This document shows, in pieces, positions 3,046 to 13,754 of a DNA stretch of 16,869 nucleotides. Origin of the DNA: Podochytrium sp. JEL0797 (Eukaryota > Chytridiomycota > Chytridiomycetes > Chytridiales > Chytriomycetaceae); NCBI GenBank assembly GCA_027596195.1, contig JADGJG010000541.1, forward strand, positions 1 through 16,869. The letters are read 5' to 3'. Below the pieces are notes generated by a model. It was not told the origin of the DNA, ran no database searches, and saw nothing but the letters and a program-made list of their open reading frames with translations. The position numbers and the translations under genes were made by a program. Each line of letters starts with the position of its first letter. Within the stretch, counting starts at the first letter, position 1.

Positions 3046-6000
3046 TTAATGCGGCAAATTCAGCAACGCCTTTTCAGCCTCCGCAAACCCTTGCGCTGCC
3101 GCCTTTCGATACCACACCGCCGCCTGCTTCTTGTCCCTGTGCACGTGTCGACCATGCTCATACATGAATCCCAAGTTGAACTGACCCTTCGGGTTTCCCT
3201 GCTGCGCCGACTTCAAGAACCACTCGTATGCCTTCGAATAGCTCACGTTCACTCCCGCCGCCCCCGTCAAATACTTTGATCCCATTGAATTCTGCGCGTC
3301 CGAGTTGCCCTTCTCGGCTGACTTCAAATACCATTCGTACGCTTTGTACAAATCGCGTGACACGCCGGATCCATTGCGATATGCAAATCCGAGCTGGTAT
3401 TCTGCTTCAGCGTTTCCTTGGCTGGCGGCTTTGGTGAACAGGGTCACGGCGATTCCGAAATCCTGTGGGGCGCCTTGTCCCGTGAGATGCATGACTCCGA
3501 GACGCGTTTGACCTTCCGCGGATCCTTCGGAGGCGGTGAGGGAATACAAGTGGAATGCTTCTTTGGGGTCTTTGGAGATGCCGAATCCGTTGGCGAGCAT
3601 GTAGGCGAGGTTGTTGCGGGCTTTGTTGTAGCCTTGTTCGGCTGCTTGTTGGAACCTAATGAAGGGGGTGTCAATTCAACAAACGGACCAACGTTGGAAT
3701 CGAGGAGAATAAGCCTCACCACTCAACGGCAATACCGTAATTCTTTGGCGTCGCGTCGCTTCCATTCAAATACATCAAACCCAACAAGTCTTGGCTTTCA
3801 GCGTCTCCGACCATGGCACCTTTGCGATACCAATCCGCCGCACGCGCTTCGTCGGCAGAAACGACACCGGCGGCCCCTGTCTTGAAAATATTTGCGAGCT
3901 GCACTTGAGCAATCACATTCCCATGTTCAGCGGCCTTGGCGAAGAATGTGAACGCCTTTTGTACGTCTTTGGCAACGGTTTGACCCCTCAGGTACAGGAG
4001 CCCGAGTTGGGCATCAGCGTCGGCGCTTCCGTGCGAGGAGGCCTTCTTGTACCTGAAGTGAGCAAAATTCTTTAAGCCTGATGGATTCCCCCCTCGGGAG
4101 AAACCAAAAAAAACCTGACCATTCGATAGCTTTCGCCATGTCAACTTTTTCCATTCCCAACCCCCTGTGGTGATACTGGCCGACCATGAACTGAGCACGA
4201 GCGTCGTTCTTGGCAGCCGCTTCTTTGTACCTGTTGTGTGGAAGGAGGGGAAAAAAGGGGGTCGCGTTGAGAAGACAAGCGAAAAAACACGACATCCTCG
4301 AACCAGTTCAACGCCTCCTTGAAATTCACTTCCACTCCTCCCAACCCACTCTCGTAAATTCTGGCGACTTCGAATTGAGCAGACACGTCCCCTTCCATCG
4401 CGGCATTCTTGAACCAGTCGATCGACTTCCCGATATCCTTTTCGACGCCGTCTCCATTCAGGTACATGCGCGCGAGGGTTACTTTGGCTTTGATGTTTCC
4501 GGATTTGGCGGATTCAATGAACCTTGTTTGATTTGCGAAATCAACAATTGATTCGACGCGATGAAAAAGAGTGGAATTTCTTACTGCTCGGTTTCTTCGG
4601 TTTGGGATCTGGTTGTGCTTGAACGGGGCAAATGCGATGGCATGTGGCGAAGCGTGTGTCTTTGCAAGGTTGTCATTGGCTCTTCCGTCACGTTCCTGGA
4701 ATTGGGACAGTACATTTCAGAATTATTGAGCAATCAAATCCAATCGAAAAAAACTCTCACAGCTGCTCCTCAATCGCATCCACAATCGTGGAAAGCACGT
4801 CGTTCCCAAGCGTGTTCGTTGGAGACCCTCGCGTGTCAATGTAAAGGGAGTCTTGGGAAATGAAACCGACGACTGTGCGGCGCCACTCGTTTTCGGAATC
4901 TTGACCAACGAGAACCAACACGCACGGGATCTTGAGCTCACGAAGGAATTTGAACTCGCGAATGCTTGTGATATAGAGGATTCAGGTTACAATGGGGCGG
5001 AAATAAGAGGGATAGGGGGAAAAAAGGAATGGGCGAACCAGTTTTCGGAGGCAGCGTATTCGTTGGACACACAAATCACGGCCAGTTTTGCGGGGCGCAT
5101 TCCGTCCACAAGATGATCGAAGAGGGGCTCGCCGACTTTGATCCTGTCGACATCCAGCCACGAAGCGTGTCCCAGAGATGTCAACTGGCGCCCCAATTCT
5201 CTGGGATCACAAGGCTGCGTAGAGGGGGGTTGAGTCTGTAATTAGTGATGCGGAATCTAAAAATGCGAAATGATGTACCCCACAGGCCCCAAGCGACGAG
5301 ATTTCGCCCTTTCTGAACGCTTCCTTGGAGTTTTTCCAGCTGTACGACACGAAAATGGTCCAGTCCACATTCAGTGCGACTGTGGATCTGTACAGAGAAC
5401 AGAGCGTTTTAAATTAACAGAAATCATGCGAACGCCAATGAAAAATATCCACCCCAAAGAATCTTGAAAGCTGGTTGCGAGAAACGAAACAATTTCGGAC
5501 GCCAGCGGCCTCGCCTCTGGATTCACAGACCAGCACTTGAGCATCAAGCTCCACAGCCTCTCGTCACATCCTTGCGGTTTCGCGGGTCGGTTCGTGATTG
5601 ATTGGATGGCTTCGAGAATTTCGTGGTCACTGCAGTCGTGGAATGGGATCTTGCCTGTCACGAGCTCCCACATGAGCATTCCAAAGCTCCAAATATCAGC
5701 CTTGGCGGTGATTTGGCTTGGATGCAAGCGCTGCTCAGGAGACATCCAATTCAGGGTTCCGAAACTGCGGTGGTGATTGATTGGGGAGAAGGAAGGGATG
5801 GAGAGGAGGTTTTTGCTGAGCCCAAAATCGGCGATGGCCGCGTGGTTCGTTTCCGTGATGAGAATGTTGGCTGCTTTGATGTCGCGGTGGATAACTCCGG
5901 CGGCGTGGATCGTTTCCAAGCCGCAGGCTGTTTCGAAAATGATGCGGAGGAGGTTCTGCGGGTTGCGGCGGATGTGTTTGTCGGCTGTTGATTTGCAGAA

Positions 6001-7124
6001 TTCGGACACGATGAAAGGCTGCGCCACTTTGGTGCACACTCCTTCGAGACGGAGAATGTAAGGTTTGCCAGAGAGTTGCATCCACGCCGAGATTTCCTTT
6101 CGAATGGCGTCCTCCAGAAGTTTGGGTTCGTCGTTGAACAAGTCGTTGAAGACCTTGACCGCCACAGTCATGCTGTGGTAGTACCCTCTGTAGACAACGG
6201 ACGTGGAACCCTTGCCAATAATATTTTCGGGTCGTGGATCGAATTGGACTTCCAGACTGCTAATCATCCAATTTTCAACAGACTCGTCGAATGGCAAGCT
6301 GCTCTCGAGACTGTTGATGCGTCTGGATGCTTCCAAAACGTGCGACTGCTGCTTCCTGAGCATTTCCGCAAGTCGGTCGCGGTGGCCGGCTCGTTCCTCG
6401 GACAATCCCTTGGCTTGGTTCAATCGCTCGAGTTCCCTTGCAAAGAACACGGTCACGTCCGAGAGTTGGTCCAGCTTGAGGGTGAGCTCGTCGAGTTTTT
6501 GGGTGAACGCTTCGTTGTTGGCCAATAACTGTTCCGTGTCGTGCAGGATTTGATCGACACCCGTGACGGTCCTGACCTGCAAATCCAGCTGCAAAACCGA
6601 GGCAGCTTGGACGAGACGTGTCTGTAGAAGTGAGAGTTCGACCTGAGTGTCCTTTGCACCGATAACTGCCTTAATCTTGTTCGCGAACCTGCACGTGAGT
6701 TTGATTAAATTCAGGGGCTTCCCCACGATCCACAAAAACACACCTGTTGACTCTGTGTTCGGCATCAATCCTTGTGGTATCGTTGCGCATCAAGAACTCG
6801 TTGATCTCGTGCATGGCCTTGCGAACGGCCTCGCCGTGGACGGGGGACATGTGGTGCAGGCCCTTGATCGTGACGGTTGTTCTCGCAACGAGGTCTCCGA
6901 GTGCCAGGATCTCATTTCGGTTCGACTTGGCAGCGCGGCAGTGTTCCAGGATCGAAGCGGCAACTGGAGGGGGTGGTGGGTCAGAGTGCATTCCAGGCGA
7001 CCAATCAAATTGGGGTACCGATGAAGATTGGGCTCACGAGAGGCCCCAGGCTATTCATGACTGGTGTGATCGCATTTATGGCAGTGCTGATGCCGGCAAG
7101 GGCGTCAGCGGCGCTGATGGACAT
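3046..7124 (-). CDS. MLKL-NTD-like / protein kinase / TIR / Sel1-repeat fusion protein
   Basis: Eleven exons join in frame to 1144 aa: 7124-7019, 6963-6744, 6688-5453, 5387-5279, 5214-5039, 4964-4761, 4695-4585, 4522-4304, 4230-4120, 4052-3720 and 3655-3046. Residues 1 to about 250 are helical, like the MLKL N-terminal four-helix bundle and brace. Residues about 263-512 are a TKL-like kinase with all catalytic elements: GKGSTS loop, VAVK Lys287, HRD Asp378, Asn383, DFG Asp396. Residues about 528-684 are a TIR domain: DWTIFVSYSW start, then SNEYAASENCIRE, whose Glu619 sits where NADase TIRs carry the catalytic Glu. A Ser/Thr-rich linker of about 38 residues follows, then 11 Sel1 repeats plus a partial one. 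The ATG has a GCCACC context. Such a protein would plausibly sense a signal through Sel1, cleave NAD and trigger a helical effector; that is inference. It could instead be two genes: stop at 4757, second start at 4715, a 41-bp gap. Domains are secure; single-gene status is about 75 percent. Confidence 0.8.
4696..4760 (-). other. Intron whose retention stops translation between TIR and Sel1
   Basis: The coding strand reads CAG CT, then GTGAGAG. GTGAGA is a good splice donor, and its bases also complete CTG (Leu684) followed by a TGA stop. The acceptor TTCCAG ends at 4696. The 65-nt length matches this gene's other introns (55-74 nt). Splicing keeps Leu684 and continues into the linker and Sel1 repeats; retention ends the protein at Leu684 after the TIR domain. 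Both outcomes are read directly from the sequence; which one is used in the cell is unknown. Confidence 0.6.
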
Positions 7125-7991: not shown

Positions 7992-8286
7992 CGTTGTTTT
8001 CTGGAAGATATTTTGAGTTCCTTTTTGTGGAGTTTTTGAGCGTTTTCCGTTGATTCGAAATCGGTTGAACTTTACAGGGTTAGTAGGGTTAATGGCAAGG
8101 GAGAGAACGAAGAGTTGTGGATTTGAAACTCCGCTGCGCCGGGCAATTTTATTTTTTCGAAGTCCGAATTGCTCCAAATTGTCGAAAAGTGACACCAAAA
8201 CAAAACATCAAAATTCAAAAGTGAAGTCCCAATGCGACGCAGCTCGCAGAATGATACAGGCATAATCTAACTACGAATCATGCAGA
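7992..8286. promoter_or_regulatory. Shared upstream region between cupin and lectin genes
   Basis: These 295 bp separate two divergent start codons and must carry both promoters. Two AGGGTTA-type words sit close together at 8076-8092 (AGGGTTAGTAGGGTTAA), resembling TTAGGG-factor (Tbf1-like) sites. No clear TATA box was found. The 5' end of the open cupin frame overlaps this region. Confidence 0.4.
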
Positions 8287-9870
8287 ATGAAATCCCTTCA
8301 AGTCGGAACACTGTTCGTGCTTTGGCTGTCGGCGGCAATCCACGCGTTTCCGGTGGCGCAAAACAACAACAGACTCATCCGCCGCAATATTCCAGCAACA
8401 GATTCTACGGATGCGACTGCCGAGACATCTACTGGTGAGATCGAGCGCATGCGCGCGCAATATTGGGTTTTTATTTTTTTGACACCTCTTCTTCAATCCA
8501 GTTTCGAACCAAACATACTCCATCTTCGCTTTGAATACTGGTAAAAATAGATGATTAGTGAAATCTGATTTGCTAATTCGATCGACAGGCTCGAGTGACG
8601 CGACTGAAGCAACACTGTTGGTAAATATTCTTTGCAGCGCGTTCGGCGATACATATTTTCTTATATACGTTCATTTTAGAGCGATTTACTCACATCAAAG
8701 ACTACGCCAACCCCGAATGGCCGTGGCGTCCCATACGTTCTCACAATCATCAAAACCGCGCCTCCCATCGCTGTTACAACGGAGACGATCCCAGATCTCA
8801 CAATCACGTCAATTGATGATATTGTTGTGAATATTACTATATACGTGAGCTTGACCGAACGCGTCGTTTTTTTTCGACCTCACACATTTTTTCCAGGAGA
8901 CGGAATCCTGCAGCGAATCGACAGAATTTGTCATTGAAAGCTCCCCAACGCCGACATCCACGACAAGCACATCTACTTCAACGAGCACCTCAAGCACAAC
9001 GACAACAGTGAGAATTTTTCGCCCATCCTCCTTTCCAAAAGATTATCCTAATTTTTCGGTTTCCAGACTTTACACTTTGGACCTGGACCGCAACCCGTCA
9101 TCCGTTCCTCGACGAGAACTTCGAAGTCGGCCCATAGTACAACTACTTCAACCAGCACTTCCACCACGCTTGGAACCACGTCCACGAGTACTTCAACCAC
9201 TGCCGAAACCACTTCGACATCGACCAGCACGTCAAGCACGTCTCAAACGTCTTCTACTTCAACCAGCACATCCACCACGCTTGGAACCACTTCCACCAGC
9301 ACTTCCACTACTACCGGAACCACTTCGACATCGACCAGCACAACCACTTTGGAACCTACATCTTTGTCGCCTTCTCAAACAAGAGTGTCCACGCGCGTCA
9401 CAACAGAAACTTGTTCGACGGAAGTAGACTACGTGACGGAATTCCTCCCCCCCGCCATTCAATACTACCCGTTGGTCATTGCGAACCATACAAAAAGCTA
9501 TGTCAAAGTAAGCAACGACGGAGTTGCTGCTGGCAGTTCCGTGGTTCTCGGAACCTCCGACTCGCCGCAAATCGACCGCCTCGCGCGTTTCGGGTTCGAC
9601 TCGGACTATAAAATCCATTACCAGCCGGCTCCAGAGCTTTGTCTCAGTGTCAAAAAGAGTGCCGGATATACAAGCGGCAGCCCAATCGTGTTGGGTGGGT
9701 GCGATGACGCGATTGTTTGGCAGGTCGAGGAGGGCTATTTCTACAAACCGGTTGGCTATAACAATCTATGCCTCGACGACAACAACGAGAAGCTTTTCAC
9801 AGACAATGTGATTCAAATTTGGCATTGCCACCATGGATGGAATCAGAGATTCGAATTCGTCATGGTTTGA
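8287..9870 (+). CDS. Secreted Ser/Thr-rich protein with C-terminal ricin-B-type lectin domain
   Basis: Six exons join in frame to 432 aa: 8287-8434, 8502-8540, 8589-8620, 8680-8844, 8897-9007 and 9067-9870. Residues 1-20 are a classic signal peptide (hydrophobic core LFVLWLSAA, likely cut after AIHA). A basic RLIRR site nearby could be a Kex2-type cut. Residues about 145-280 are almost only Ser and Thr, a mucin-like stalk expected to be O-mannosylated. Residues 300-432 look like a beta-trefoil carbohydrate-binding domain (ricin B/CBM13 type), with WHCHHGWNQRFEF near the end resembling the family's QxW motif. No enzymatic domain is present; this is a lectin module only. It is probably secreted or wall-linked; no GPI signal is seen. 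Exons 2 and 3 are tiny (39 and 32 nt), and skipping could go unnoticed. The ligand is unknown. Confidence 0.78.
9143..9347 (+). repeat. Tandem 111-nt repeat encoding the Ser/Thr stalk
   Basis: A block starting CTACTTCAACCAGCAC at 9143 recurs at 9254, a period of 111 nt (37 codons). It contains CCACCACGCTTGGAACCAC and ends with ACTTCGACATCGACCAGCAC. The second copy is slightly shorter. Inside it are shorter TSTST units. Such in-frame repeats usually vary in number between strains. Confidence 0.75.
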
Positions 9871-13655: not shown

Positions 13656-13686
<31 letters not shown>

Positions 13687-13697
13687 TCACCAAGGGA

Positions 13698-13754
<57 letters not shown>
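13656..13754. repeat. G29-spacer-C55 homopolymer pair
   Basis: A run of 29 G (13656-13684) is followed by the 15-nt spacer TTTCACCAAGGGAGG and then 55 C (13700-13754). The two runs are complementary and could fold into a long G:C hairpin; each could alternatively form G-quadruplex or i-motif structures. Frames read through them (poly-Gly/poly-Pro) are not genes. The tract sits right next to the channel pseudogene fragment. It may be a real feature, a rearrangement scar or a read-joining artefact. Confidence 0.85.

Follow-up and report, generated by a model that had tools for sequence, protein, structure and literature searches.

One chytrid gene for N-terminal helices, a protein kinase, a TIR domain and Sel1 repeats

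The gene model

The window analysed here is a contig of 16,869 bases from the chytrid Podochytrium sp. JEL0797 (Chytriomycetaceae), whose assembly comprises 24.4 Mb in 995 contigs. Its minus strand carries what is, judged by its sequence, one gene for one protein, in which N-terminal helices, a protein kinase, a TIR domain and Sel1 repeats follow one another. With GT..AG splice sites and the reading phase as guides, 11 exons join into 1144 amino acids plus a stop (1145 codons), occupying exactly 3046-7124. This re-derived splicing gives coordinates identical to those of an earlier note on the same DNA, which had claimed eleven exons, 1145 codons and a fitting phase.

Exon 1 (7124-7019) encodes residues 1-35 with a hydrophobic N-terminal segment, and exon 2 (6963-6744) residues 36-108. 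Exon 3 (6688-5453; residues 109-520) holds the end of the predicted helical bundle, two long putative "brace" helices and the kinase, as placed with the help of the model of an orthologue described below. The TIR domain (4695-5377, about residues 525-684, introns included) starts in exon 4 (5387-5279) and has its middle in exon 5 (5214-5039); its C-terminal part lies in exon 6 (4964-4761), with a candidate catalytic glutamate, Glu619 (codon 4957-4955). Exon 7 (4695-4585) holds a variable TIR-Sel1 linker (4587-4694, residues 685-720) and the first Sel1 residues. The Sel1 repeats (3049-4586, residues 721-1144, introns included) continue through exons 8 (4522-4304), 9 (4230-4120), 10 (4052-3720) and 11 (3655-3046), and the stop codon occupies 3046-3048.

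The deposited protein HDU98_008947 (P0001; 1123 amino acids) comes from the same gene and differs from the 11-exon version only at the N-terminus and at intron 8, eight of the ten introns agreeing at the protein level. It has no counterpart of exon 1 (7019-7124), its N-terminus beginning within intron 1, and it carries five additional residues at intron 8 (4231-4303). Which version is to be preferred? The exon-1 segment, ending in P-x-x-x-PIF, is found in all three orthologues from other genera (P0002-P0004) and the five additional residues in none of them. At both differing places, the three orthologues agree with the 11-exon version, which is favoured over the deposited model.

Conservation of the module order and the TIR-Sel1 pair

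The earlier note had read helical domain, kinase, TIR and Sel1 as a single gene, a claim that is upheld by the relatives of the protein. In a full-length alignment the order of N-terminal helices, kinase, TIR and Sel1 is colinear in four of four proteins, those of the window species and of three other genera, all of the Chytriomycetaceae. Identity to the window protein is 62% in Siphonaria (P0002), 49% in Physocladia (P0003) and 40% in Entophlyctis (P0004). These orthologue proteins are gene predictions, and insertions in P0004 look like missed introns. In the full-length protein search 8000 candidates were scored and the best 120 of 2176 matches retained, and the species distribution is to be read as a minimum. 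With the TIR alone and the N-terminus alone as queries, the protein database gave four and three proteins, respectively, and the orthologue P0004 was absent from both results.

Could two adjacent genes, one for kinase and TIR and one for Sel1, have been joined on paper only? An ATG is present in the linker exon (residue 691) and the orthologues are predictions likewise, but all four deposited proteins (P0001-P0004) show the fusion, and the linker ATG recurs at the aligned position in none of the three other species. Further evidence against separate genes comes from a paralogue in the same genome (contig C275), where one uninterrupted open reading frame (ORF) of 199 codons matches Sel1 (1e-8) together with the second half of TIR_2 (3e-5, 25.0 bits, under the cut-off of 28 for the whole domain). 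The preceding frame carries ankyrin repeats together with the TIR's first half (52% over residues 3-68 with the window TIR as query; no Pfam match at 0.05), giving an ankyrin-TIR-Sel1 gene on the minus strand at 6369-4308. That half a TIR and a Sel1 repeat lie within an unbroken ORF of this paralogue makes the TIR-Sel1 join in the window credible without recourse to RNA. A protein of Obelidium mucronatum (P0121) likewise has TIR and Sel1, followed by an MMR_HSR1-type GTPase. With fused orthologues, the single ORF of the paralogue, the Obelidium protein and an unconserved linker ATG, the division into two genes is rejected as extremely improbable.

The same pair is found on contig C29, where a TIR frame with a Sel1 frame after it on the same strand occurs twice, the two copies being near-identical; in the one copy scanned, the ORF that covers the TIR's first half gives 23.1 bits for TIR_2, below the cut-off. 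The TIR of C275 is 43% and that of the Obelidium protein 45% identical to the window TIR. Since C275, C29 and P0121 all carry the TIR-Sel1 arrangement of the window protein, it is a recurring pair; no MLKL_N or kinase match is found in the pieces of the three that were scanned.

As a separate observation, pairs of equal-score matches lie 8-10 kb apart on a single contig at C29 (27354/36170), at C201 (Sel1; 63885/71601) and at C224 (kinase; 58885/69401). These pairs are due either to recent tandem duplication or to an artefact of the assembly.

Kinase, TIR domain, Sel1 repeats and N-terminal helices

The kinase domain (5479-6225, residues 264-512) matches Pfam PK_Tyr_Ser-Thr (PF07714) at 9.9e-50, with Lys287, HRD (Asp378) and DFG (Asp396). 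Its Lys, HRD, Asn and DFG are invariant in the four chytrid orthologue rows, and the kinase is apparently active. The earlier note had called helices and kinase together MLKL-type: the term fits the N-terminus, but not the kinase, whose catalytic motifs are intact, unlike those of the MLKL pseudokinase. Among the best 60 of 1081 solved sequences matched by the kinase, most are tyrosine kinases, with MAP3K12 also present, and the predicted kinase fold groups with those of RAF and tyrosine kinases. Its HRDIKxxN loop belongs to the Ser/Thr type, and because tyrosine- and RAF-like matches combine with such a loop, the kinase is called tyrosine kinase-like (TKL). In its own genome the next best match by score is 30% identical.

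The nearest non-chytrid relatives among the matches listed are kinases of the oomycete Aphanomyces (P0005-P0016), which share with the chytrid protein the kinase and, in the sets compared, a homologous N-terminus. A kinase tree was built from 93 rows, with at most two kinase stretches per protein. It covers the window protein and P0002-P0061, P0001 being excluded as a product of the same gene and P0062-P0121 likewise excluded; several of its branches are long. In this tree the chytrid proteins contribute four rows, which hold together at 100/97 and group at 100/99 with 13 rows from 12 Aphanomyces proteins. Between these groups the N-termini align as well, with hhalign scores of 55.4 (three Aphanomyces proteins) and 48.6 (five proteins). 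Unlike the chytrid protein, the Aphanomyces proteins have no TIR or Sel1 among their listed domains, and several carry ankyrin repeats or a second kinase. It is possible that this link between bundle and kinase in chytrids and oomycetes reflects old inheritance or a transfer between the two groups.

For the TIR domain, Pfam TIR_2 scores 37.0 bits (5.4e-9) on the spliced protein, above the cut-off of 28. Among the orthologues, P0003 (35.0) and P0004 (29.9) also exceed the cut-off and P0002 (26.3) lies below it. The final glutamate of S-E-N-C-x-x-E is invariant in four of four orthologue rows and five of five TIR-set rows, and it aligns with the glutamate of the WC-x-x-E motif in plant TIR structures. 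In RUN1, E100 is named as putatively catalytic (PMC7282519). We read the two as equivalent positions, so that the TIR would carry a glutamate of the type found in enzymes cleaving nicotinamide adenine dinucleotide (NADases), at a putative catalytic position.

Might the TIR itself then be the effector, in a SARM1-like NAD-depletion device in which the N-terminal bundle does no more than build the oligomer and the threshold is set by the kinase? The retention of the glutamate in all these rows would suit such a device, and so would the ranking of solved TIRs, in which plant resistance proteins score best and bacterial TIR proteins and NAD hydrolases rank lower. However, the TIR score is modest, with P0002 under the Pfam cut-off, the NADase activity is a prediction, and some non-enzymatic TIRs also keep this residue. 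We regard a SARM1-like device as improbable.

Pfam finds Sel1 in 11 stretches of the spliced protein (1.6e-91), the model of P0002 contains 12 Sel1 helix pairs, and Sel1 structures rank first in its fold list. Sel1 is a scaffold repeat.

The N-terminal region (6604-7034, about residues 31-137, introns included) appears to resemble an MLKL-type helical bundle, less firmly than the other modules are identified. Against an MLKL_N set of human MLKL and three proteins with PF22215 among their listed domains, hhalign gives a colinear match of profile to profile that scores 36.3 over 115 columns. None of 300 column shuffles reaches this value (maximum 22.2), the reversed comparison gives 11.9 and the best of 16 decoy windows 17.3; with the human MLKL row removed the score is 30.2. 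In the AlphaFold2 model of P0002 (mean predicted local distance difference test score, pLDDT, 74.4), helices are predicted at residues 10-27, 36-51, 56-75, 81-100, 103-113 and 118-142, followed by the two brace helices before the kinase at 159-205 and 210-241. The blocks have a pLDDT of 73-87 at residues 11-100, 38-47 at residues 101-120 and 63-82 at residues 121-150, and it is low in both brace helices. In terms of secondary structure order only, packing aside, the model starts with an additional helix and continues with four more, a short one lying between the third and the fourth of these, and the model of the Aphanomyces protein P0007 shows a similar series as far as the fourth helix. For basidiomycete MLKL-like bundles, PMC9815663 describes an additional helix at the N-terminus and a short helix, hM, and the predicted helices of P0002 follow the order given there. 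The most hydrophobic 19-mer of the window protein (rank 1 of 1125) starts at residue 22 and extends into exon 2. In three of the four chytrid proteins the top-ranking 19-mer falls within the first 60 residues, and in the fourth the N-terminal one comes second.

Several results weigh against an MLKL-type bundle that acts at a membrane. The MLKL_N match on the spliced protein (6.4e-4, 19.7 bits) lies under the curated cut-off of 27, and at E<=1 the family is found in one of the four members of the chytrid set A1 and in neither of the two Aphanomyces relatives scanned. The hhalign score is 15.7 with human MLKL alone, and 15.6 and 14.6 when each of the two N-terminal sets of Aphanomyces is compared on its own with MLKL_N; none of the three is significant. 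Moreover, 22 circularly shifted templates retain scores of 23.0-31.9, so that much of the hhalign signal is local. When solved structures are searched with the profile of the N-terminus, 12 matches up to E 10 are returned, MLKL not among them. The P0002 record is tagged UNVERIFIED_CONTAM, and its model has a predicted template modelling score (pTM) of 0.41, with brace (blocks 42-60) and TIR (blocks 35-70) poorly modelled. Finally, the two Aphanomyces proteins checked have a weaker hydrophobic stretch at the N-terminus, ranking 23rd and 15th. MLKL is also not among the best 50 rows of either fold search, with the models of P0002 and P0007; because these rows are filled by kinases and, for P0002, also Sel1 chains, the N-terminus went in effect uncompared there. 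The MLKL-like N-terminus proposed in the earlier note stands in part, on the hhalign comparison with its shuffles and the predicted helix order, but its Pfam match is sub-threshold.

A possible switch and its place among known systems

What is established is the anatomy: one gene model, the order of its modules, their conservation in four genera of the Chytriomycetaceae and intact catalytic motifs. The conserved module order suggests a self-contained stress or immune switch. Our tentative preference, held with somewhat less than even confidence, is that the protein may be a membrane-linked switch for cell death or stress, regulated by its kinase and with Sel1 as the sensing part. The Sel1 superhelix would bind a trigger or partner; the TIR domains would then cluster and may cleave NAD+; the clustered kinases would phosphorylate one another, freeing the brace; and the freed N-terminal helix together with the MLKL/HeLo-type bundle would act on a membrane. 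A sensor, a RIPK3-like kinase, an MLKL-like executioner and a TIR enzyme would thus be combined in a single chain.

In animal necroptosis, kinase (RIPK3) and executioner (MLKL) are separate proteins, and TIR NADases belong to other pathways. It is doubtful whether the chytrid protein goes as far as a necroptosis-like pathway within one polypeptide, with the TIR as enzyme or oligomeriser, with sensing, activation and killing all intramolecular and with a core of bundle and kinase common to oomycetes.

A close rival to the membrane-linked switch is a non-lethal signalling kinase, in which bundle, TIR and Sel1 would serve oligomerisation or docking and the output would be phosphorylation in stress or development. 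The intact kinase motifs, unlike those of MLKL, and the scaffold nature of Sel1 are consistent with it, as are the lack of any other match to the N-terminus in its own genome and the 62% identity to the Siphonaria protein, for which the rates of other genes are not a yardstick here. The Aphanomyces relatives, too, keep N-terminus and kinase with no TIR or Sel1 among their listed domains. Yet a pure scaffold would have no need of the hydrophobic N-terminal helix seen in the chytrid proteins, or of a conserved NADase-type glutamate. We consider a signalling kinase that does not kill a serious possibility, though not a probable one, and retain the membrane-linked switch as the preferred, still tentative, reading.

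How does the protein relate to known systems? In MLKL of animals and plants (MLKL_N, PF22215), an N-terminal bundle, brace helices and a kinase fold come in the order predicted for the chytrid protein; MLKL has a pseudokinase, whereas the chytrid kinase motifs are intact. To our knowledge, vertebrate MLKL carries neither TIR nor Sel1. MLKL-family proteins with Sel1 repeats are reported in Glomeromycotina, and only there, by PMC8778642, whose text contains no word beginning with TIR. They share with the window protein the MLKL-family assignment and Sel1 in an early-diverging fungus, and the window protein differs in belonging to Chytridiomycota and in having a TIR. TIR and MLKL-like bundles are both listed as fungal effector domains, with TIR in NOD-like receptors (NLRs) of Chytridiomycota, in PMC9815663. 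Unlike fungal NLRs, the spliced protein has no Pfam match to NACHT or NB-ARC at E<=1. The modules are thus known separately, and their combination is a new variant as far as the literature searched shows: no description of the four in one protein was found there (preprints and most subscription papers lay outside its scope), and no paper that brings Sel1 together with TIR domains, kinases and chytrids. A word search of two reviews on immunity and cell death in fungi (PMC10197012, PMC12881547) finds no word beginning with "chytrid".

Elsewhere in the same genome, contig C786 (1501-3150) encodes a TIR followed by an NACHT/NPHP3-type nucleoside triphosphatase, that is, a TIR-NLR, with an in-frame stop inside the TIR that is probably an intron. 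Around the gene itself, nine reading frames were scanned, of which eight match known families: three match Vps41, and the other five are a ChrR-like cupin, a frame with a ricin-B lectin domain, one with a cyclic-nucleotide-binding domain, one with an S4 domain, and SGT1. At 8284-9870 on the plus strand, a protein that looks Ser/Thr-rich by eye and ends in a C-terminal ricin-B lectin domain adjoins the ChrR-like cupin gene. Long C and G runs at 50-84 and 13657-13754 of the window may be sequencing or assembly artefacts.

The corrected gene model has a practical side, as exon 1, absent from the deposited protein, encodes a large part of the hydrophobic stretch required for a death assay. The recurrence of the TIR-Sel1 pair suggests that it is a reusable chytrid module. 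Together with an MLKL-like bundle and a kinase with intact motifs, a TIR in one fungal protein would give a testable single-chain necroptosis logic in Chytridiomycota.

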